From: Saccoglossus kowalevskii
Taxonomy: Eukaryota; Hemichordata; Enteropneusta; Harrimaniidae
Direction: 5' to 3'
Assembly (NCBI RefSeq): GCF_000003605.2
Contig: NW_003141807.1
Span: forward strand, 291,580 to 355,579
Length of the DNA stretch: 64,000 bases
The notes under the pieces were generated by a model. That model was not told where the DNA came from. It worked only from the letters and a program-made list of their open reading frames with translations, and ran no database searches. The first letter of the stretch is position 1, and every line of letters starts with the position of its first letter. This document shows positions 15,106-57,534 of this stretch, in pieces. A program made the translations under genes and the position numbers.

Positions 15106-16268
15106 TGTAATTTATTTATTGTTTTTAACTCGTGATTGGGAGAATTTCGGTGACGGTAATAACGCAAATTTACTAAATCACTTTGTGCTCCAATGCTTCA
15201 AAATCGGCAACTATTAAAATATTAACAAAAGGGAAAAAATGTAGACCATAACATTGAATTTAGTTTGAAATAAAATCTGGTTTCCTAAAAACAATGTATT
15301 GGAAATTTGTGTAAAATGTTCACCAGTTGTTCTCACTGCATCCGGGACATGTATTCGTGCAAAATAAATCAGGCCAATAGGCAATGTATCTCACGATTGG
15401 CTTATCTGAGATAATTCACCATGGACAGACGAACCGTTTACAAACAAAAAATAGAATATCACGAAGACTGGCTGTAGTTTGGTATTGCAAAACCATGGTG
15501 ATTTCGTAGTGAGAGTAATATCTATTACTGTACGAACAATACTTCTGAAATATAATGGTCATAATGGAAAGTAAAGTAAAAATGGCATGACGTCACGACG
15601 ACAATGCCATTATCTGAACGTAAATACTGTAAAACATGCCTTTTTAGCTAGCATCTTATTTTAGCTAATTTAGCTAATCTGTAATTTCGCTAATTCAAGA
15701 TGTCGCTAATTTAACACAAAGTATATTCTCACAATGAGATAGTTGATACTTTAGCTTGAATGAAGATTCTGTAAATTCATGCCAAGAGTCAAATCCGCTA
15801 AAATTGCATGCAGCTATTTCAACGTGTTCTACAGTATACTCCAAATAAACTACATATGAAGCAATATAACCAAAGCTTAAAAGTATGGGTATCATTTACA
15901 ACACACGTACAGCCAATAGTGTTATGACATAAAAGTAGTGAGTCTAGTTTTTGAACTTAAACAGCATCCAGTCGCATTGTAGGAGTCGTAACAATAAAGC
16001 CGATTCAACTGGTACTAATAATATTGGGAAAGTTTACCACAGCTGAGCACTCCCTCTAAATGTGTTAGTCCGACATTTCCTACTCACAAATTGACGGCTT
16101 TGTTACTGGGCTGACAGAATAGTATACAATACAAGCATACCATCCATTACGTTTTTTTAATCATAGCAGATATTACATACGTGGGGACCCAGTGACAAGT
16201 TTTAATATTGGATATTAGTGCCCAGTAGTACAGAACTTGGGATGTGGCGAAAACAGATAAACATATAC
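15106..16268. other. No gene; degenerate TAGCTAAT repeat at 15643-15713
   Basis: At 15643-15713 the motif TTAGCTAA or TTCGCTAAT recurs about five times at irregular spacing of 11-20 bp, which looks like a decayed tandem repeat. The rest is unremarkable AT-rich DNA. Confidence 0.45.
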
Positions 16269-17534
<1,266 letters not shown>

Positions 17535-31500: not shown

Positions 31501-34500
31501 TTCAACTTGAACTCTCGGCGGATTCAGGACGGACTGTTTCACTGTAGTTACTTTTTCGTAAATGCGCTGTGTGTAACGCCAAGGTCACCATACCCCCAAA
31601 CCCATACCACGGGAAAACTCAAATTTCCTTAGTAAATTTTATATAACAGTTGTTCTATTCACCATCAACTTTCTTTTCGCAAAATTTAACATCCCTCTCC
31701 AGTTTTCTTTTGACATGGCCACAGTCCCTCTAAAGAGATTCATGTGATAAGTACTGTCATGGTAGTCGAGAGGTCCGAAGCGTGAGCTCAATCATGTGAT
31801 AGTGGGAAATTCGTATGTAATCAAGAATGTGACGTAAATTTAACTAACCGAAGCAGTTCAAAGTAACGCATGCACATTTACAGTTGATGTGGTTTCCAAA
31901 ACGACTGCAAATTCATCCAAAACATAATACACCAAAACGATGTTTGACATAATCAAAAAATGAAGAAAAATGAGGTGTGATGCGTCTTCTAACCAGAAAT
32001 ATCCTTTTCAGCCTTTAATGTGCAAGTGAATCTTACAAGCTAATGACAGTTTTGACGCACACGGTCACCCGCCGTATCGGATGGATACTTTCCTTGATGC
32101 CGAAAAAAACAAAAACAAAACGAGAACATGATTCCAAGTTCTGTTCGACTCGTAACTTAGTTACGCGAATTAGTAAACGTTTTCTAAATGGCAATTAAAA
32201 GATACAACAGTTGAGACTGAATCTTAGTTATTCCAATCATACTAATCATTCTGAATATTTTTAAACAAACAAAGGATGCATCCCGATCGAATTTGAGCTC
32301 CGCTTCTTCTATTGTGTATCGATCATATCGAAAGTTCGTTAATTTTTAAAATGTACAAAACTGAAAGATCCGCCGGCTTTTCATGTATGCGTTTCTTTTC
32401 ACGGCGTGCTTGTCTGTTACATTATGTGACGCGCTGTGAGAGTAGCTCTCAACACACCAATGGGTGACTGCAAACGATCCATCAAATCTAATACTGTACA
32501 GACATAATCAATGAATAATTTCTCGAAAATAATATTTTGAGAGGTAGTCATCGATTTTTGTACTGTTTCTAAACAAATTGACATTGATGCGCGCTTCCCG
32601 TTTTGTTAAGTGCATATATAAGCCGTGATGACAGCGCGGCCACTGTTGTCTTTCTGTTCATATGCAAATGAGTCTCTGAAATGTAGCCACCTGCATGTTG
32701 TCAATTATGTATCTCCGTTGTAGCTTTCAGTTGTCGCTGGTGTTTTTCCCGCGTAGCAATAATGCCGTTTCTGCTTTTCAAATTTCTTTTGTTAAACTCC
32801 GTATAGTAATATCCGCCAAGCGACTCCGATCCTTTAAGCTGTACTCAGCCCAGTTTGAGTTGCTATCCCCCCCCCCCTTGTGAAGTCGACTAAGTCTGGC
32901 AAAATACAGATACCACAAACGTTTTTTTTTTTTTTTAGAATTATCTCATTTTGATTTTGTCGACTGCCTTTCCAAACACAGTCCGGTCTTTATGTATCGA
33001 ATGAAGTTCGAAGTTGTTGGACATGGATTTGTATGTTGTCGATACACAAGAATACATACGAGGGCCAATCAGTGAAAAGTCGTGAATGTCACGTAGTAAA
33101 CGTAGGACACCATGACAACGAGCTCTAAACACTTTCAATGATCGATTGTAACACATTTGAAAGATTGTAGTTATATGAAGACCCTAATTTACGCCAACGT
33201 TTACATCGATACATCGAACACGTTATCTAAGTTGTGAATATGAGAAATACTTTCTAACAAATTTGGTGTACACATCGCTTCATCACTGCAATATTAAATT
33301 GACAGTTTTGGACTGTCTAATTTGTTTAAATTAAAGGAAGAAAGTGGGGAAAACATTGTCGCAGGAGTTTCACTTTATCGAATTCATACTGATAAAACTT
33401 CAACATTCGGACGCCTTTTCTGAATAGAAAACAAATAATAACATTAATAAGTTCACGTACAAAGCAACGGAGATGAATTGTCTACACGGCGCATGCTCGC
33501 CGCAAGACAGATGAATACAAATCAATCCGTTAATTAAAATGGCAACACTGAAAAGCTCACGAAACATAAAACTTTGATTACATTCGAGGCCCGCTCTACT
33601 TTATTCACTTCGGCGTGTGTAATTGGATATACTTTTCCCAAAACCAACTCAAGTGCCTTTCCTCGCCGTTATCAGTAATCTACGCCACGCCACGCAAACA
33701 AATTAGCATCGATCTCCCGACTTCCCCGGCACTATTCACAAGTGTGTTGGCAGTCCTTATCGTGCCTCCGTTTTTTAAACATTCGATTTTTATCCGTCGC
33801 TATACCAGAAGCGTTATCGTGGAAAATAGAAATAAAAAGTAACACGGAAAAAGGCGCGTTAAATTTGCCTTATCGCGAGATCAGCGACAGAGTAGCAGGG
33901 TTCACCTGTTACACATGAATTATTAAGTGTCCGATTTTTGCCTCAAAAACAATCACAAATTGTGGTGGCGATGTCATACGCACCAGTAAACAGACCTTTC
34001 CGATAAAAATATTTCTCATCGAATTCATTATTTTCCAACAAATGGTACAGAGGGAATTTACAAACCATAACACTATTGGTTGTTACAATAGTTCTGTAAA
34101 GTTTCGTTGTAGCAAAGTCATCTTTCTGTTTCCTCTTTCCCGAGGCGGGCGCTCTAATCAGAGTGGCTTTTAGATGAAGATTATCTCCACTTGGGTAGCG
34201 TTCGCTATAATAGTCCCTCAACATTCGGCTAACTTTGGGATTTTAAAATTATAATAAAACACTGAAATGTTACTCGCCTTTCCGACAAAAAATACTACAC
34301 AACCTTTCGATGTTACGATATATAATAGCGACGGCGTTGAAAATAATTTTATACCAAATCTAGTAGTGATCATTTTACAATATACAATAAAATAACATTA
34401 CATCAGCTGCGATGAATTAAATGAATGATTACTATCTCGTTTTAAACTTCCAACCTCTTAAACTTTAGAAGATGGACAGTTGTGGACGTGATTGATTTGG

Positions 34501-44709: not shown

Positions 44710-44748
44710 GTTGAACCTCAGACTAGTAATACAAGTCTGAGGTTGAAC
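44710..44748. repeat. Short inverted repeat at the end of the minisatellite
   Basis: The arms GTTGAACCTCAGACT (44710-44724) and AGTCTGAGGTTGAAC (44734-44748) pair at 14 of 15 positions around a 9-nt loop. No gene overlaps, and the origin is unknown. Confidence 0.75.
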
Positions 44749-45709: not shown

Positions 45710-45816
45710 GGTTATTACGAGAATACCTCAAAGTATGCACAAAGACAGTACAGCTGAAATATCGATGCGACGGCGTACTGTCTGGGTGCATACTTTGAGG
45801 TATGCTCGTAATAACC
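45710..45816. repeat. 107-bp foldback element
   Basis: Two 42-bp arms (45710-45751 and 45775-45816) pair at 39 of 42 positions around a 23-nt centre. The outer ends read GGTTATTACGAG and CTCGTAATAACC. It could be a minimal foldback transposon or, if transcribed, a hairpin RNA. No gene overlaps. Confidence 0.88.
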
Positions 45817-46808
45817 ATAGGAGTGCTGAAATCCAAAATGTTTAGAACAGAATCAGCGAACTTGTGTGGAGTACAGGTCAAACCCTGGTGGCAGCCATGT
45901 TTGTTTTTATTATTAGAGGACGCTTACGCGCGTGATCATTCCATATTTGGAATTAACATTTCTTTATATAGTAGGATGAAAATACCCCGTAAAATACCGC
46001 AACATTACGACACGCTGTAACTTATGGCGTTACGGTGACATATTACTGTATTGTAAAGTCTTCTCCGTTATGATGTGATAAAAAAAAATGCAATTAGTAA
46101 CATTGATATAGTGAAGCCAGTCAATTTGGACTCCAAGAACCATGCCACTTGTGTAGATAGTTAATGCTGATGATGGAGGAGAAGTCTGGCAACAGATACT
46201 AGACACATTAGCCGAATGATTTGGTGTACCATTGTTCACATTTGCTTTAGTAATGATAATATTAGGATTGTTGTCTGGCCGTATTTAGGTAAAGAGTTAC
46301 CATATTTGGATAACTTTACTCTGTTCAGTCTTGAACTGGTATACATATATTTTTTTATCTAGGATTGGCGTTATTTGGTCTACTTGAACTCGATTGTATT
46401 TACAATTAGCCTCATGCAGCCTAAGATTGGTCATATTGGTTTTGGATTGGTCACATTCGCTCAACCATTGTTCATATTTGATATAATATTGTTCACACAA
46501 TGTACTCTGAAATCCTTGTATGCAATTTAGTCATTGGGGGGGGGTCACCAGATTTGCAGGTTAAAAATCCTTCATTTTTTTCCGAGCGAAGTACATTTTA
46601 TTCTGTTAAATTAATCCAGCTACATATCCCAGAAGAACATCTTCCTCAACCTTATAGAAGAAAAAGAGGAAATAGAAAGGTAAAAAAACAAGTAAACAAA
46701 AAATTAGAACGTTTGCTTTACCACAAAGTTTGTAATCCCTGTAATTTATAATAGGATTAACCTAAACCTAATGACCCACCACGCGCAGCGCTGGCACATT
46801 GCTTGAAA

Positions 46809-46823
46809 CACAGAGGGACTGTG
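46809..46823. mobile_element. Micro-palindrome copy 1 with 7-bp flanking direct repeats
   Basis: A 15-bp core CACAGAGGGACTGTG is flanked on both sides by CTTGAAA (46802-46808 and 46824-46830). The direct identity extends further on both sides because the core ends match the flanks. The arrangement matches copies at 49240 and 50254, and it looks like an extremely shortened transposon with its target duplication. Confidence 0.55.
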
Positions 46824-46830
46824 CTTGAAA

Positions 46831-47340
46831 CAATAAAATTTTATACGCGTAGGTTTTCTTTACGTACTAGGTTGAAAACAGTGTCAATATCACCTTCTTT
46901 ATTGGCTAAAAGTCTCGTTTTTGCCATGAAGATTGAAGTGTTTGCTCAATGTTGAAGGCGCACCATGGCACAACTGATATTGACACACACATGTAGAGTG
47001 AAATCAGGATCGGAAATGTCACTGACACATTTTCGGGGAGTCTCTCTCTCTCTGCTGATTTTAATCCATGCCCGTATGAGTTCTCCTGGAAAATGTTCTC
47101 CCCAATAACATTTTGCATTCCGAGGTTGTTGAATGAATAATTTAGCGCAAATATGAATTGGTGAAAGTAGTCCAATTGGGTTAAACAGGAGATGTTTCTG
47201 TTTATAAACAGGGAATCTTATAAAATACAGATCAAACTGAAACTGATGATGGTGGAGTGTATGTGTTATATGATAGAAATTCTCGGGTAGTACAAGTATC
47301 TGGTTTTATCATACATTTTTTGACATATAATTGACATATA
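46831..47340. other. No gene; region 3' of the first GT31 gene
   Basis: AT-rich. A minus-strand AATAAA (46903-46898) lies about 720 nt past the GT31 stop codon and is one possible poly(A) signal for it. A TCTCTC tract lies at 47041-47054. Confidence 0.35.
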
Positions 47341-47450
47341 ATTGTTGTCTGTGAAATTGCTCTAAAATAGCAAATTTTGAATATTTTGCTTCAATATCAT
47401 TGTGGTCTGTAAAATTGTTCTAAAATAGCACGTTTTGAATTTAATTTGCC
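47341..47450. repeat. Two-copy tandem duplication, about 58-bp period
   Basis: The segment from ATTGTTGTCTGTGAAATTG to TTTTGAAT is repeated at about 47399 with several substitutions; both copies contain TCTAAAATAGCA. It lies downstream of the first GT31 gene. Confidence 0.75.
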
Positions 47451-47504
47451 AAATTTTCTTGAAATACGGTACGAAAAGTAACTGTAAAACATTGCCATGT
47501 TGTA

Positions 47505-47559
47505 TGCATTTATGGAGAATCTCCAAGGCTCATTGTCTTGAAGATTCTCCATAAATGCA
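47505..47559 (-). other. Perfect 18-bp-stem hairpin downstream of a GT31 gene
   Basis: The arms TGCATTTATGGAGAATCT (47505-47522) and its exact reverse complement (47542-47559) enclose a 19-nt loop. It begins 62 nt after the last base of the stop codon of the minus-strand GT31 gene, so it is probably in that gene's 3' UTR. It could act as an RNA stem, or be a small foldback insertion. Confidence 0.8.
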
Positions 47560-47621
47560 CATAATATAGCAATGAACATTTCCATGTTATATATGATGCA
47601 ATGCTCATCCGTCCAATCACA

Positions 47622-48683
47622 TTATAACATGCGTCCTGTCTTCCTATACCCCGATTCAACACATGGATACAAGAGTATGCGCTTGGGTTGCTGGGCATAT
47701 TGTAACATTTTCCATGCAAATAACTGATGAGATGGCGCCTTGTGATGTGACGTAAACAACCACCGCAGTTTGCATCTATCGGGGTCAGAATATATGGACC
47801 AATCGTGACCAAATCGCGTGTCGTTTACTACGTCTACGCCAATCTTCCGTAAACAAATCCCCACGAACACGTCTTCCCAGTTGAGGTAGATCAAAGATGG
47901 CGCTATGTCTCGTACCTTCTCGACCACGTCACGTGACAGCACGTATCCGGTCCCGACCAAATATGGCGGATAAACCGGATCCGGATATGAGTCAAACTGA
48001 GTATTCCACTTACTCATTGGAGATCTGATCACCGTGGAGTTTTGGGATACCTGACCCAAGGCAAGTTTTGTTCGCGGCTTACTTATAAGCACTCTCATGA
48101 GAGAGTCATAATTGACAAAAACGTCATCGTCCGTTTTCAAAATATAAGAGACGCGTGGACAATAATCCACCGCCCAACGAAATGCATGAATTGTCTTCAA
48201 CGTCAGATTTAAATAATCGTCTGTAAAATCAAATAGAAGTATGTCTCTGAAGGCGTTAGCCTCTTGTTGAATCTCGTTCATCAATTCTTGGTCATGGCTC
48301 TTCGCCAACAAGAACACGGTGGCAACACCCTTGTCGTTTTCTAACGTTGTATTTCCCCAAGTACGTCGAATTGCTGTCCGTTCGGCAATGTTTTTGTTTT
48401 GTGATGTCACAATAGTCAACAGAAACACATCTCTGGTTCTGCAGATATCCCGCTGGTTTATGATATATCCCAAGTCGTTTGCCACGAATCTCTTTCCCGA
48501 GAGGAAGTTTGAGTTGTTATAATAGATCGGTTGTGGTCCCAGGGGTTGGAGCTTAAGGCGTCTAGTTACCTTGTCATGACTGCTGTGGCTGATGTGTAAT
48601 GCAATGAAGAAATAAAAACTGGTATATACACAACTTAAGATAACAATAACACACACTTGGTTAATTAGTCGTTTTGGAAACAT
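47622..48683 (-). CDS. GT31 beta-1,3-glycosyltransferase (beta-1,3-galactosyltransferase-like), paralog A
   Basis: 353 residues, intronless coding region. A short cytoplasmic N-terminus is followed by one membrane segment (about residues 8-30, hydrophobic with many Phe, Val and Ile), giving the type II Golgi topology of the family. The stem is followed by the catalytic domain. It shows the family motifs AIRRTWG (104-110), a VFLLAKS strand (about 123-129), DDYLNLTLKT (155-164), the metal-binding DDD (185-187) in ILKTDDDVF, YLVGTGYVLS (241-250) and EDVFVG (270-275). Sequons near residues 56, 111, 159, 215 and 287 suggest N-glycosylation. Members transfer Gal or GlcNAc in beta-1,3 linkage from a UDP-sugar to glycans; the substrate cannot be told here. 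Length is usual for the family. An acceptor lies 50 nt before the ATG, so the gene probably has an untranslated upstream exon. Confidence 0.93.
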   Translation of the reverse strand: MFPKRLINQVCVIVILSCVYTSFYFFIALHISHSSHDKVTRRLKLQPLGPQPIYYNNSNFLSGKRFVANDLGYIINQRDICRTRDVFLLTIVTSQNKNIAERTAIRRTWGNTTLENDKGVATVFLLAKSHDQELMNEIQQEANAFRDILLFDFTDDYLNLTLKTIHAFRWAVDYCPRVSYILKTDDDVFVNYDSLMRVLISKPRTKLALGQVSQNSTVIRSPMSKWNTQFDSYPDPVYPPYLVGTGYVLSRDVVEKVRDIAPSLIYLNWEDVFVGICLRKIGVDVVNDTRFGHDWSIYSDPDRCKLRWLFTSHHKAPSHQLFAWKMLQYAQQPKRILLYPCVESGYRKTGRML

Positions 48684-48733
48684 TCTCTTCGTAAAATTGG
48701 CCAGTTTCAGTCTGCCATGCCATTCTCACTAAC
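48684..48733 (-). promoter_or_regulatory. 5' leader of paralog A after a splice acceptor, with upstream ORFs
   Basis: On minus, GGGTTTTCTTCGCAG ends at 48734 and is a good acceptor. The 50-nt leader that follows has an ATG at 48723-48721 opening a 20-codon frame. That frame runs out of phase over the real start and stops at 48663-48661. A second ATG close by opens a four-codon frame. These could reduce translation of the enzyme. The splicing is predicted, not shown. Confidence 0.5.
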
Positions 48734-49239
48734 CTGCGAAGAAAACCCAAAAGTTAAACACAACATATAAACCTTCCACAATGAAACTGTACCTTATTTT
48801 TATAAATATAGTTGAAAACAAATGAACTTTCATTCAAATTCAAATATTCAATAGTGATTACCATAAGAGCTCTACACCCACAATGCACGCTTGTACTTTT
48901 ATACACGTGACATAGAAACTGCAGCCCTTCGCCGCTTATTTAAAATGAAGCGCTCGCCAGGTTACAAGTCCATTTCTGGATTGGCCAATTTGAAATCTAA
49001 CGTGCATATATGTATATAATCATAAAACGTCTTCGGGTTTCTGTCGCTCACTCTATTCCCCCACTGAATTGATTATCATAGGGCCTGTACCAGCTGGTTC
49101 GTTCACATCGTTTGTGACCATGACATTGAACGACTACTACCACGCTCACGACTTGAACTCATTGACTGTTAAATACTTTCCCCATAAAAGTTGTTGGGAG
49201 ATTGACAAGAAACGTTCAAAAAGCTGACCAGGCTTAGAC
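48734..49239. other. Likely 5' intron of paralog A; nothing else seen
   Basis: Sequence upstream of the predicted acceptor. The first exon was not found. No other feature was supported. Confidence 0.35.
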
Positions 49240-49265
49240 CACAGTCCCTAGATAGAGGGACTGTG
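49240..49265. mobile_element. Micro-palindrome copy 2 with 7-bp flanking direct repeats
   Basis: The 26-bp core begins CACAGTCCCT and ends AGGGACTGTG (10-bp perfect arms, 6-nt centre AGATAG). CTTAGAC directly flanks it on both sides (49233-49239 and 49266-49272); with the base before, the direct repeat is 8 bp. It has the same architecture as copies at 46809 and 50254. Confidence 0.65.
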
Positions 49266-49498
49266 CTTAGACTATTGACAGTGAATTATCAGGAGGAGAA
49301 ATTCTTCACCGGGGTTCTCCACACGTGTCAGGGGGGAATATCGTCTCGTCTCTCTATCGCGTCCCCTTGAGGTACGGGATCGGGAAAGTCACTTAAGCTT
49401 ACAGTCAAATAAGACATACACAACAAAATACGTTTCAACTCTCGTCCTAGTCGGTCAGTCGAGCACTCTATAAGACACAGCGCCCTGGGGAAAAGTCC

Positions 49499-49577
49499 CC
49501 AAGACTATCGCAAGGCTGACCCAAGACTGCCTCTAGACTGCGTCAAGACTCGCCCAAGACTCTCTAAGACTAGACTG
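49499..49577. repeat. Degenerate short tandem repeat, CAAGACT unit
   Basis: About seven copies of a CAAGACT-type motif at 10-13 bp spacing, with CTAGACTGCGTC-like variants repeated twice. It lies upstream of the first GT31 gene and has no coding role seen. Confidence 0.6.
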
Positions 49578-50253
49578 CGTCTGTCGTGGTCATACAGCCA
49601 ATCACACTAAGTACTGAACACGTCATATCTTTTGATTAATCGTTCACTACATTAATAACTGCGAATACCAACTGTCAGAAATAGTAGTCAGAATAGCGAC
49701 GGTTATCTCTAAATTAGTTCCAAACCACTGAGCCAAGTTCCGTCCAGAACTTCAAATGGGCCGAAACGATGACAGACATAACACAGCCATTCACTAGTAA
49801 TCAGCTAATTAAGTCGATTAACAGATACGTGCAAATAATTTCATCACAGAATGATTTCCTAGGACTTAAAATATCATAGACTCCACAAGTTGTATCAGAA
49901 AATATTCACTAACTCCCTGCGCGGCATGATCAGTTCAGTTCAACGACAAGTAACAAGCAGCGAGGTTTGACTCATGACTTTACTGCTTTTGTCGTAGTTT
50001 CGAATTGTTTTTGTACTAATTATGTCTTCCAGAGTCCGCCGTGCAGTATCTCCTGTGTTCCAAATTTATTCCGACATTTACATCGCTCTCATCGGCAACA
50101 ATGTAAATAGGACTACTATATGTTTGCTTAATGATATACATCATGTGCGAATTCTACAAATCACAGGGATGCAATTGGATGACAATGGTTGGATGACAAT
50201 AGACATCAGACAACCAACGAAACATATTGGCAACGCAGCGTTTTCTATTGAAG

Positions 50254-50291
50254 CACAGCCCGTCTATCCCTCTATCGATAGAGGGGCTGTG
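50254..50291. mobile_element. Micro-palindrome copy 3 with 7-bp flanking direct repeats
   Basis: The 38-bp core begins CACAGCCC and ends GGGGCTGTG, and has an inner perfect palindrome CCCTCTATCGATAGAGGG. ATTGAAG flanks it directly on both sides (50247-50253 and 50292-50298). It is the longest of the three copies; an extra GTCTAT in the left arm breaks the symmetry. Confidence 0.65.
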
Positions 50292-50347
50292 ATTGAAGTA
50301 ATGCGTGCCACGCTTGTTTAGGTCATCATTTCTCATCATATCAATAA

Positions 50348-50446
50348 ACGTTGCCGAGCAACGAGACTATCATTAGATCTCACAAAATAACGCGAGATCT
50401 ATTCATATTCCCACCAATTATCCCGAGATATCGCGATATATCGCGA
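50348..50446. repeat. Cluster of small palindromes rich in CGCG and GATATC
   Basis: Three inverted repeats lie within 100 bp: CGTTGC-CGA-GCAACG near 50348-50362, AGATCTC...GAGATCT near 50374-50400, and a perfect 16-bp palindrome TCGCGATATATCGCGA at 50431-50446. No gene overlaps. They may be protein-binding sites or a decayed foldback. Confidence 0.55.
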
Positions 50447-51409
50447 GACATAACCAGATTACGTTGATACGCTGAGAGATATATGTGTATGCCCAGACAA
50501 CTAATTAATTTATTAGTTGACTGAGGTGTATGACACCGGCTATCCCCGGGCCATGTTTCGGTAACCCTGAACACAAAAAAACATGACTGTTAACACACAA
50601 AATGCTATGATTGCTTGAAACGCAGCAATATACATTTCCAGAAAAAATATCGAAAACCTTCCGCAAAATCCGCAACAGCGAGAAATATCGTTTTGGGTGG
50701 GTTGTCTGAGAATAGACTGAATTTGCGTATCGGTTGTTGCATCGGTCCCATGGTCGGTGAGTGTGATTCGTGGGTTGTGTAATACACGCACTTTGGAAGC
50801 TTTTATATATTCACCTCTAGCTGTAACTAATGTGGTTTATTCAAAGTTTACACTCGGCGATACAGGTCATAGTACAGTTTACGCTAATGACCAACGTTCA
50901 TTTACTACAGGGTACTTTAGTTGATTTTTTTTTGTTCACTTCGTGGGTTGGCATACACATATATTTCTACATTGTTGTATACGATGAAGAATCAAAATAA
51001 CGTGAGTTCTGTATAATAATATATTTCAGTAATTGATTTTACTGTGGTATGTATGGGCACTGTCTTTATAATCTACTACATGTAATATGGCCGCCCTCAT
51101 TCATTCGCCTTAAATCGAAAACGCAGCTAAAAAAACAGCACCGCTAAGTTCACGCGAACTGGATGTCATAACGATAACATATTCGCAACATACACGATGA
51201 ACTTGGCATTTGTCTGAAAAGGTTCTCTTTATCGAGGTCTTCAGATCAGCGTCTCCACGTCAGGGCTTAGCGAGAGCTGCGAGTATTTGTCTTCCCATCA
51301 TGGCGGTGACCTAACCTGAACTTACCGATTCTTATCAAGTTAACTGTTGACGTATTGGCAAACATTTGCGAACCAAACCAATCAAATGAATAACTGACTG
51401 AATGACCGA
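50447..51409. other. No recognisable gene
   Basis: AT-rich spacer with only short, unsupported open frames. Confidence 0.4.
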
Positions 51410-51523
<114 letters not shown>

Positions 51524-52025
51524 CAAGAAAGAAGCATATATGCACAAATATATGCAAATAAGGAATCTTTGTGTTCAAACTAAATAAAAATAGTTGGGGA
51601 GGAGGGGCAACATGACAGTATATGGCACATTTTATACCCGAGAATATAGAATGTATGCTCTTGTAATTTGTCGCAGATGTCAGATCTCTCCTAGCATATA
51701 CATCATATTTGAGATAAATAGCCACTTGGTAATTATCTCCTGACAAATATGCTAATTTCCCAAATGAAGGCTACCAATAATCGTTGCTTTCTTTATATTA
51801 ACCCAACATAAAACGAAATATTCCAACTAAAATCTATTCACTTTTGATGTATGAATTGTTATGATGAATCATGATTTCACTTGCTGCATATGAAATAATT
51901 AATTAATTTAAATAATAGTTTCTAAAATACATTTCAATCGCACTAGACTGTGGGTTTAGCTTACAGTTTGTCTATTCACGGCCAAAGTGTGGAGCGATGC
52001 AGATTGCATTGCAACATAAGTAGTA

Positions 52026-56415: not shown

Positions 56416-57495
56416 TCACGGCGTCCGTTTTGAGCTAACGACAATATTCCGAGACGACTGGGCGGCTCTTCTGATACACTCCCTCCGGTACTTTGTGTAC
56501 ACTTTCCACATGTAGCGCAACCTCAACGGATTTTTTCGGTGCGACGTAAAAAGGCTATGAAATGAACATGGCTCTCTGAAATCCGTGTATTTCGAAAACG
56601 TGTCAAAACCCATGCTGTGTCGTATCGGTATCTTCAATTCATCCAAACATATCCCAACAAACACATCCTCCCAGCTTAGGTATCTTTTAGTAGAACCGAG
56701 ACTGAGGACTTCAGCCGCAACATCATGAGACAGAACATATCCGGTGCCAACCAAATATGGAGGGTATTTTGTTCCTTTGTACATGTCAAAGGTCGTGAAC
56801 CATTTGTTAGTTACGTTTCGCGCTGGGGTGACGTTGTAGTACGCATATCCATATGCAAAGTCGTGACGCGGCATTTCGGTGAGATTATGAACGAGTGTGT
56901 AGGGGTTTATAAAAACGTCATCATCTGTTTTTAAAATATACTTCGATTGAGGGCAGTAGTCAACAGCCCACCGCATACCAAGAAGCGTTTTCAGAGTTAA
57001 ATTTAAATAGTCCTCTTGGAAATCGAATTCTACAATGTCTCGGTGTTTTCGACTCTCGTTATCGACGAGCCTCATCAATCGAGGATCTTGACTTTTGGCG
57101 AGTAGGAATACACTGGCGATTTGTTTACCTTCATGTACGCTGATACTTGCCCACGTATCGCGAATCGCGTTTCGTTGCTTGTAGTTTTTGTGTTGCGTGG
57201 TGATTAGAGTAAGCAGAAAGACATCGCGATGGTCGCTGCATATTTTCGGCTGGTTTATGAGGTAACTATACTGATCCAAATGAATGTACTCCCCCGATAG
57301 TAGGTTCGTATTGTTGAACATCCTCTCAGAGTAGTCATCATCGGCAAATAGCCATGTTCGACCGCCTCCAAACACTGGGGAAGTTGACCCCCAAGAAGGG
57401 CCACCCTTACCAACGTTAAAGTAGAAGCAGATAAAGACCACGATCAATAACAAATACAGGAACGAAGTGGTTACAACGATTTGTTCCAGCCTCAT
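56416..57495 (-). CDS. GT31 beta-1,3-glycosyltransferase (beta-1,3-galactosyltransferase-like), paralog B
   Basis: 359 residues from the ATG at 57495-57493, intronless coding region. The longer open frame starts six bases earlier with TTG, which is unlikely in an animal. A membrane segment at about 7-27 gives type II Golgi topology, followed by a Gly/Ser-rich stem. Family motifs are AIRDTW (110-115), VFLLAKS (129-135), EDYLNLTLKT (161-170), the metal-binding DDD (191-193) in ILKTDDDVF, YLVGTGYVLS (247-256) and EDVFVG (276-281). Sequons near 61, 165, 204, 221 and 227 suggest N-glycosylation. By eye about half the aligned catalytic-domain residues match paralog A, so this is a duplicate that has diverged, and both keep intact active-site motifs. 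Sugar donor and acceptor cannot be told from sequence. The tail (about 335-359) is basic and differs from paralog A. Confidence 0.93.
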   Translation of the reverse strand: MRLEQIVVTTSFLYLLLIVVFICFYFNVGKGGPSWGSTSPVFGGGRTWLFADDDYSERMFNNTNLLSGEYIHLDQYSYLINQPKICSDHRDVFLLTLITTQHKNYKQRNAIRDTWASISVHEGKQIASVFLLAKSQDPRLMRLVDNESRKHRDIVEFDFQEDYLNLTLKTLLGMRWAVDYCPQSKYILKTDDDVFINPYTLVHNLTEMPRHDFAYGYAYYNVTPARNVTNKWFTTFDMYKGTKYPPYLVGTGYVLSHDVAAEVLSLGSTKRYLSWEDVFVGICLDELKIPIRHSMGFDTFSKYTDFREPCSFHSLFTSHRKNPLRLRYMWKVYTKYRRECIRRAAQSSRNIVVSSKRTP

Positions 57496-57534
57496 GATCA
57501 AATGACGTAATCAAGTGCGTGCATCCAGTAAGAT
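57496..57534 (-). promoter_or_regulatory. 5' leader of paralog B after a splice acceptor, with an upstream ORF
   Basis: On minus, GTATCTCGTTTCAG ends at 57535 as a plausible acceptor. The 39-nt leader has an ATG at 57524-57522 opening an eight-codon frame. That frame ends in TGA at 57500-57498, just two bases before the real ATG. This arrangement could tune translation by reinitiation. The layout resembles that of paralog A. Confidence 0.5.

Follow-up and report, generated by a model that had tools for sequence, protein, structure and literature searches.

The window analyzed here, a 64,000-nt stretch of the genome of the hemichordate Saccoglossus kowalevskii (C3272:291580-355579, contig NW_003141807.1, in an assembly of 572 Mb and 4830 contigs), contains three very short palindromes that all start with CACAG, end with CTGTG and lie between 7-bp direct repeats. 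We are highly confident that these micro-palindromes are germline excision footprints of P-superfamily cut-and-paste transposons. The observations that carry this conclusion are target-site duplications (TSDs) around the palindromes, longer relatives with the same ends, a limit on the length retained from each end, long inserts that resemble transposon tails, an empty paralogous site, and a P transposase beside related ends. A sequence-only reading of the window had proposed an ultra-short transposon family moved by a hAT-like enzyme and, as a fallback, collapsed relics of longer copies; we judged the fallback to be right.

Micro-palindromes, target-site duplications and longer relatives

All three cores (15, 26 and 38 bp) and their perfect 7-bp direct repeats were confirmed to the letter. 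The first footprint (46802..46830; no strand is assigned to any footprint) has CTTGAAA on both sides of the 15-bp core CACAGAGGGACTGTG (46809-46823), which, as read from its sequence, combines 5 nt of one transposon end with 12 nt of the other, with AG common to both. The second (49233..49272) has CTTAGAC around the 26-bp core CACAGTCCCTAGATAGAGGGACTGTG (49240-49265), split by the same kind of reading into 10 nt, an A and 15 nt. The third (50247..50298) has ATTGAAG around a 38-bp core (50254-50291) that includes an insert of 8 nt, CCTCTATC, matching the tail of the transposon; because this core has point changes, its ends were fixed by hand at 15 nt each. Among the seven CACAG...CTGTG pairs of the window no more than 100 bp apart, exactly these three had a perfect flanking repeat of at least 5 bp; since no pair with such a repeat occurred in 100 second-order Markov sequences of window length, the three structures exceed chance. 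A fourth footprint, which the sequence-only reading overlooked, lies at 44710..44748, where GTTGAAC encloses the 25-bp core CTCAGACTAGTAATACAAGTCTGAG (44717-44741). This core splits into CTCAGACTAGTAATACA and AGTCTGAG (17 nt + 8 nt) and belongs to a second family, D; the first three belong to family A. A reading of the palindromes as RNA features was rejected, with 0 Rfam matches in the window at gathering thresholds.

The family-A end sequence CACAGTCCCTCTA had 1393 exact matches genome-wide (715 on the plus strand and 678 on the other), compared with 2 (0 + 2) for the reversed control. Reading the sequence around 88 ends, taken from the first 100 of the 1393 listed, together with the window, gave 90 distinct ends at 76 loci. 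A 7-bp repeat enclosed a 12-47-bp core at 42 of the 76 loci (35 perfect, 7 with one mismatch), and these 42 loci had 41 distinct repeats and 38 distinct cores. Thus, the flanking repeats differ between copies and behave as TSDs, as the sequence-only reading had anticipated. Five further loci had longer paired elements, and four had long ends for which no partner was found. The 7-mer immediately left of an end recurred perfectly 8-60 bp downstream at 44 of the 90 ends, whereas permuted flanks gave a mean of 0.32 (maximum 3 in 200 runs) and a control 7-mer taken 20 bp upstream recurred at 2 of 90. Repeats of 8 bp were found at 11 of the 90 ends, a quarter of the 44, as expected for a chance match of the eighth base, and we therefore set the duplication at 7 bp. 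Genome-wide, family-A palindromes with both ends exact occurred at 178 places, TSDs being examined at those loci whose sequence was read. Tandem or segmental spread as a general cause was rejected in view of the 41 distinct TSDs at 42 loci. Real exceptions were one duplication, in which two copies on contig C447 share TSD and core, and a tandem array on C2249 that carries a single scar and was counted once. In this array (G000:C2249:372-763) a family-D palindrome recurs every 89 bp or double that, and the scar was apparently captured in the array.

Family D gave a similar picture. Its end sequence, CTCAGACTAGTAATACA, had 363 exact matches genome-wide and 0 for the control, and palindromes with both ends exact occurred at 181 places. 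Perfect TSDs flanked 14 of the 16 family-D micro-copies read (two of the 14 are a single duplicated locus), the other two having one mismatch. Fourteen of these 16 scars were picked for carrying both 17-mers; another, L037, came from a blind scan and defined the motif, and the last, L092, was picked for a single 17-mer, with its TSD identified by eye.

Both families also included longer elements that share these ends. Those with family-A ends measured 191, 616 and 1014 bp, each with a perfect 7-bp TSD, and 494 bp, with one mismatch; among the three long family-D elements read, two of ∼1.12 kb had a perfect TSD and one of 843 bp had a single mismatch. The terminal inverted repeats of long elements extend to ∼30 bp (32 bp in the family-D copy on C346). 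Internally shortened elements span 191 to 1144 bp, as aborted gap repair would give, and one alternative is that the micro-palindromes are what remains of full elements whose middle was deleted through replication slippage or aborted gap repair, with no excision by transposase. We consider this origin very unlikely, because breaks made at random would fall anywhere, whereas the retained ends stop at 17-18 nt, and because the sampled TSD-flanked cores jump from 12-47 bp to at least 191 bp. The two intermediate cores (68 bp without a TSD and 71 bp with a one-mismatch TSD) contain nested insertions.

At least two families, A (CACAGTCCCTCTATCAC) and D (CTCAGACTAGTAATACA), form micro-palindromes, and there are probably several more. 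A blind scan of 336 kb (the window and loci L001-L068) for 12-60-bp cores that have inverted 5-bp ends and are enclosed by perfect repeats returned 54 matches at a repeat length of 7 bp, of which 39 start with CA; some of the 7-bp matches are simple repeats, and overlapping loci are counted more than once. Cores starting with CA numbered 0 at repeat lengths of 6, 8 and 9 bp (at 9 bp, among the tallied starts) and 5 of 39 at 5 bp. The 7-bp matches also included cores starting with CATGG, CAGGG, CATAG, CACGG, CACCG and CTCAG, and the CATGGAACTATA palindromes are a candidate third family. At four loci (L005, L014, L040 and L049) one family's footprint lies within or beside that of another (a family-A palindrome), each with its own 7-bp TSD, and from these nested footprints we read that old scars serve as targets.

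The target sites also have a sequence in common. Reconstruction of 39 empty sites gave the palindromic motif TNN[RTTNAAY]NNA, with 1.04 bits at −3/+3, from symmetrised counts, which impose mirror halves. Of the 15 unsymmetrised family-D rows, 13 had T at −3 and all 15 had A at +3, two rows being one duplicated locus, and the −3/+3 bases of the four window scars were T/A twice, T/C once and A/T once.

For the third window scar, a paralogue was available for comparison. The footprint at 50254-50291 is surrounded by the remains of an older, longer element (50221..50693, plus strand) akin to the 1121-bp family-D element, a nesting that the sequence-only reading missed. The window matches the 1121-bp element over 50221-50253 (84.8%), 50293-50431 (85.0%) and 50553-50693 (78.7%), and the two pieces that flank the 38-bp core both include one stretch of six element bases (TTGAAG), of which the element has a single copy at that point. 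The palindrome with its duplication is therefore an insertion relative to the paralogue, which, as judged from this alignment, shows the empty site of the 50254 scar. At the seventh TSD position the window has A and the element has T.

Retained ends and junctions

The length that the palindromes keep of each transposon end is limited. In family A, the 96 ends of 48 palindromes retained 13 nt (6 ends), 14 nt (26), 15 nt (21), 16 nt (27) or 17 nt (16), and none was longer. In family D, the 94 ends of 47 loci retained 12 nt (12 ends), 13 nt (4), 14 nt (6), 15 nt (10), 16 nt (27), 17 nt (13) or 18 nt (22), again with none longer. The family-A tally comprises 48 of the 50 listed plus-strand rows among the 178 places, two rows that overlap others being left out, and the family-D tally comprises 47 rows from the 50 listed plus-strand rows among the 181 places, four rows of the C2249 array being merged. 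Because both tallies demand 12-13 exact bases at each end, shorter scars are absent from both lists. Genome-wide, 127 family-A ends consist of CACAGTCCCTCTATCAC (17 nt) followed by a base other than C, compared with 18 that continue exactly into GGTCTGG, a comparison in which two ends with T or A at position 18 fall in both counts and ends with C at position 18 but without GGTCTGG are omitted.

The junctions between the two retained ends were of three types: 27 of the 48 in family A had an insert, 16 were blunt and 5 overlapped, and the corresponding numbers for the 47 in family D were 20, 13 and 14, although these classes depend on how ends are assigned. For inserts of at least 3 nt in 16 distinct cores, the longest matches to the tails summed to 96, compared with 52.8 after shuffling (maximum 64 in 2000 shuffles), and this signal stems from inserts of at least 8 nt.

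These features correspond to what is known of P-element excision in Drosophila melanogaster. P transposase is described as cleaving the 5′ strand 17 bp within the 31-bp inverted repeats, which gives a 17-bp stagger (PMC7776569). Donor ends in flies are accordingly reported to carry 17-nt 3′ overhangs, and their repaired junctions to run from TSD through a partial tail, an overlap or insert and a second partial tail to TSD (PMC2895639). Laboratory excisions of the fly P element, such as the P{wa} footprints, are likewise described with an 8-bp TSD, at most 17 nt from each inverted repeat, and overlaps or templated inserts (PMC2895639). The scars described here resemble those footprints in this architecture but differ in their 7-bp TSD, in a limit of 17 nt for family A and 18 nt for family D, and in being inherited scars in a genome rather than events scored in crosses.

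On this basis, the micro-palindromes would arise as follows. A full element with terminal inverted repeats first inserted and duplicated 7 bp of target, as the repeats on long and short copies show. Transposase would then cut one strand at the element edge and the other ∼17 nt inside each inverted repeat, and both chromosome ends would be left with 17-18-nt 3′ tails of transposon sequence. Such a long stagger at cleavage is suggested by the point at which retained ends stop, 17 nt in family A and 18 nt in family D, together with the Drosophila biochemistry. With P transposase cutting 17 nt within each inverted repeat, a maximum of 17 nt per end would remain and be rejoined. End joining, probably of the polymerase-theta type, would pair or extend the tails, sometimes copying them, and seal the break, consistent with the junction overlaps and tail-like inserts. 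The scar would be nearly palindromic, since its two tails have one inverted-repeat sequence in common but run in opposite directions, and it would measure ∼34-36 bp between its two TSDs if both tails were whole and nothing was inserted. Scars of this kind, without the subterminal sequence of long elements, should not move again.

The enzyme named by the sequence-only reading fits these data poorly. Short inverted repeats and short TSDs are features of hAT elements as well. hAT excision, however, leaves hairpins in the flanking DNA and retains hardly any transposon sequence, whereas up to 17-18 nt per end remain here, and the transposase that accompanies related ends is of the P type. That the palindromes are scars of a hAT-type transposon is thus barely conceivable, and we rejected this reading on the 7-bp (not 8-bp) TSD and the retained-end length, without any search aimed at hAT genes.

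A second possibility is that the ∼12-50-bp palindromes are themselves transposons, which a transposase would excise and reinsert by acting on a pair of ends that almost touch. The sampled copies do sit between their own TSDs, and some identical cores are found at sites with different TSDs (a 36-bp core at four sites). We nevertheless consider this origin highly improbable, and there is likewise only a very slim chance that the palindromes with recurrent identical cores are genuine ∼25-36-bp transposons re-mobilised by P transposase. If they were, they would contradict the view that looped internal DNA is required by a transposase and would be the smallest DNA transposons known to us. Cores vary chiefly at the junction, as repair predicts (38 of 42 distinct in the sample, 32 of 48 in the family-A tally and 25 of 47 in the family-D tally), no side exceeds 17-18 nt, and the scars have none of the subterminal block of long elements. 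In a 34-bp palindrome, cutting 17 nt in from each end would also leave almost no double-stranded cargo. Moreover, fly P elements are stated to need 138 and 216 bp of end sequence for movement, and less than 100 bp per end is argued to be possibly sufficient in Anopheles (PMC1562414).

Transposase evidence and comparison with known P systems

Longer relatives exist (191-1014 bp in family A and 843 bp to ∼1.12 kb in family D), and a transposase was found in a related family. The TNP-like_RNaseH_N domain had 13 matches on 11 contigs, and the best of these, on C1630, sits in a 7.9-kb element with identical 30-bp ends, CACCGTCCCTCAACACCCGGTTAAGAAACG, on both sides. This element also has a match to the C-terminal RNase H domain, over the cut-off like that to TNP-like_RNaseH_N, a match to the GTP-binding domain below the cut-off, and a weak phmmer match to the solved Drosophila P transposase structure (E 0.0048). 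A subterminal block resembling CTATTGTYTAAGGTGTTAATT was visible by eye in the ends of family A, the C1630 element and family D, and the footprint CACCGTCCCTCAATGAGGGACGGTG at locus L054 resembles the C1630 family end. A small acidic open reading frame (ORF) is common to the family-A element at L010 and the C1630 element (E 5e-10) and was weakly matched in family D (E 7e-6 and 3e-5), all in two-sequence comparisons. From these links we infer P-type transposases for families A and D.

The short acidic protein (..DDFVEFDDDNIDWDFVL..) was seen in three related P-type families, at L010:1036-1269, in a reverse frame of C1630 and at position 239 of the L087 element. In C1630 it lies on the strand opposite the transposase and matches a C2H2-type zinc finger; the L010 ORF alone had no Pfam match over the cut-off. 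It is possibly an accessory gene of the clade.

Several observations weigh against a P-superfamily origin of the scars. Neither family-A nor family-D ends were found to enclose a transposase, so that the link runs via the related family, and no known ends were recognised around the two other transposase loci read (L070 and L071, the latter ending in a run of N). The flanks of the C1630 element differ (AGTGGGT and GCAATAC) and include no matching TSD; because they do not match, this element is not a clean insertion. No THAP match was obtained in the six ORFs of the element that were scanned with Pfam, a part of its total, and the only feature of this kind seen was an unconvincing C2CH pattern. 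PF12017 had 0 matches in the genome, uninformatively, as it also had 0 in 14 control genomes. The limit in family D is 18 nt rather than 17 (22 of 94 ends), and that in family A may also be 18, because position 18 varies in long elements (C, T or A in nine long family-A ends). Shorter inserts, taken singly, matched the tails no better than shuffled sequences did. Cores recur in 9 of 47 cases in family D and 5 of 48 in family A, which descent would explain too; no TSD partner was present at 25 of the 76 sampled family-A loci; and no intact element was seen still present opposite a scar.

Two other P-superfamily systems offer a comparison. Galileo of Drosophila is described with a 7-bp TSD of consensus GTANTAC within a 15-bp palindromic motif (PMC4168063). 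The present families resemble it in having a 7-bp palindromic TSD consensus (RTTNAAY) and a motif that reaches past the TSD (PMC4168063, PMC3573991), but the inverted repeats of Galileo are very long, and the ends here are ∼30 bp. P elements and P-type miniature inverted-repeat transposable elements (MITEs) of Anopheles gambiae, as presented in PMC1562414, are similar in comprising several subfamilies with short non-autonomous relatives and inverted repeats of 27-31 bp, but differ in their 8-bp TSDs. The main text of that paper contains none of the terms 'footprint', 'palindrom' and '7 bp'. No genome-wide account of P footprints was recognised by title or abstract in the literature searched, which included few subscription papers.

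Other features of the window and significance

An unpaired family-A end (CACAGTCCCTCTA, 31720..31732, plus strand), also overlooked by the sequence-only reading, had neither a partner nor a TSD that we could find. Larger imperfect inverted repeats at 45710-45816 and 47490-47574, with arms of 42 and 38 nt, have no evident 7-bp TSD. Long open frames at 47622-48725 and 56416-57510, both on the minus strand, match Galactosyl_T (beta-1,3-galactosyltransferase type; E 3.4e-50 and 3.9e-53) and are apparently single-exon paralogues. Two further minus-strand frames, at 16147-16692 and 51267-51770, read (IYLF)n and probably represent 4-bp microsatellite arrays.

Fly crosses have already yielded footprints of P excision. 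This genome appears to keep hundreds of them (178 family-A and 181 family-D places), each at a locus of its own and each recording one germline double-strand-break repair, and thus to offer an assay-free record of end joining by overlap, blunt junction or insert in a non-model species. The scars also map the former positions of transposons that have since vanished, and they advise caution, in that short TSD-flanked palindromes should not be annotated as MITEs. Finally, they point to P-type elements that duplicate 7 bp and apparently cut with a stagger of 17-18 nt.

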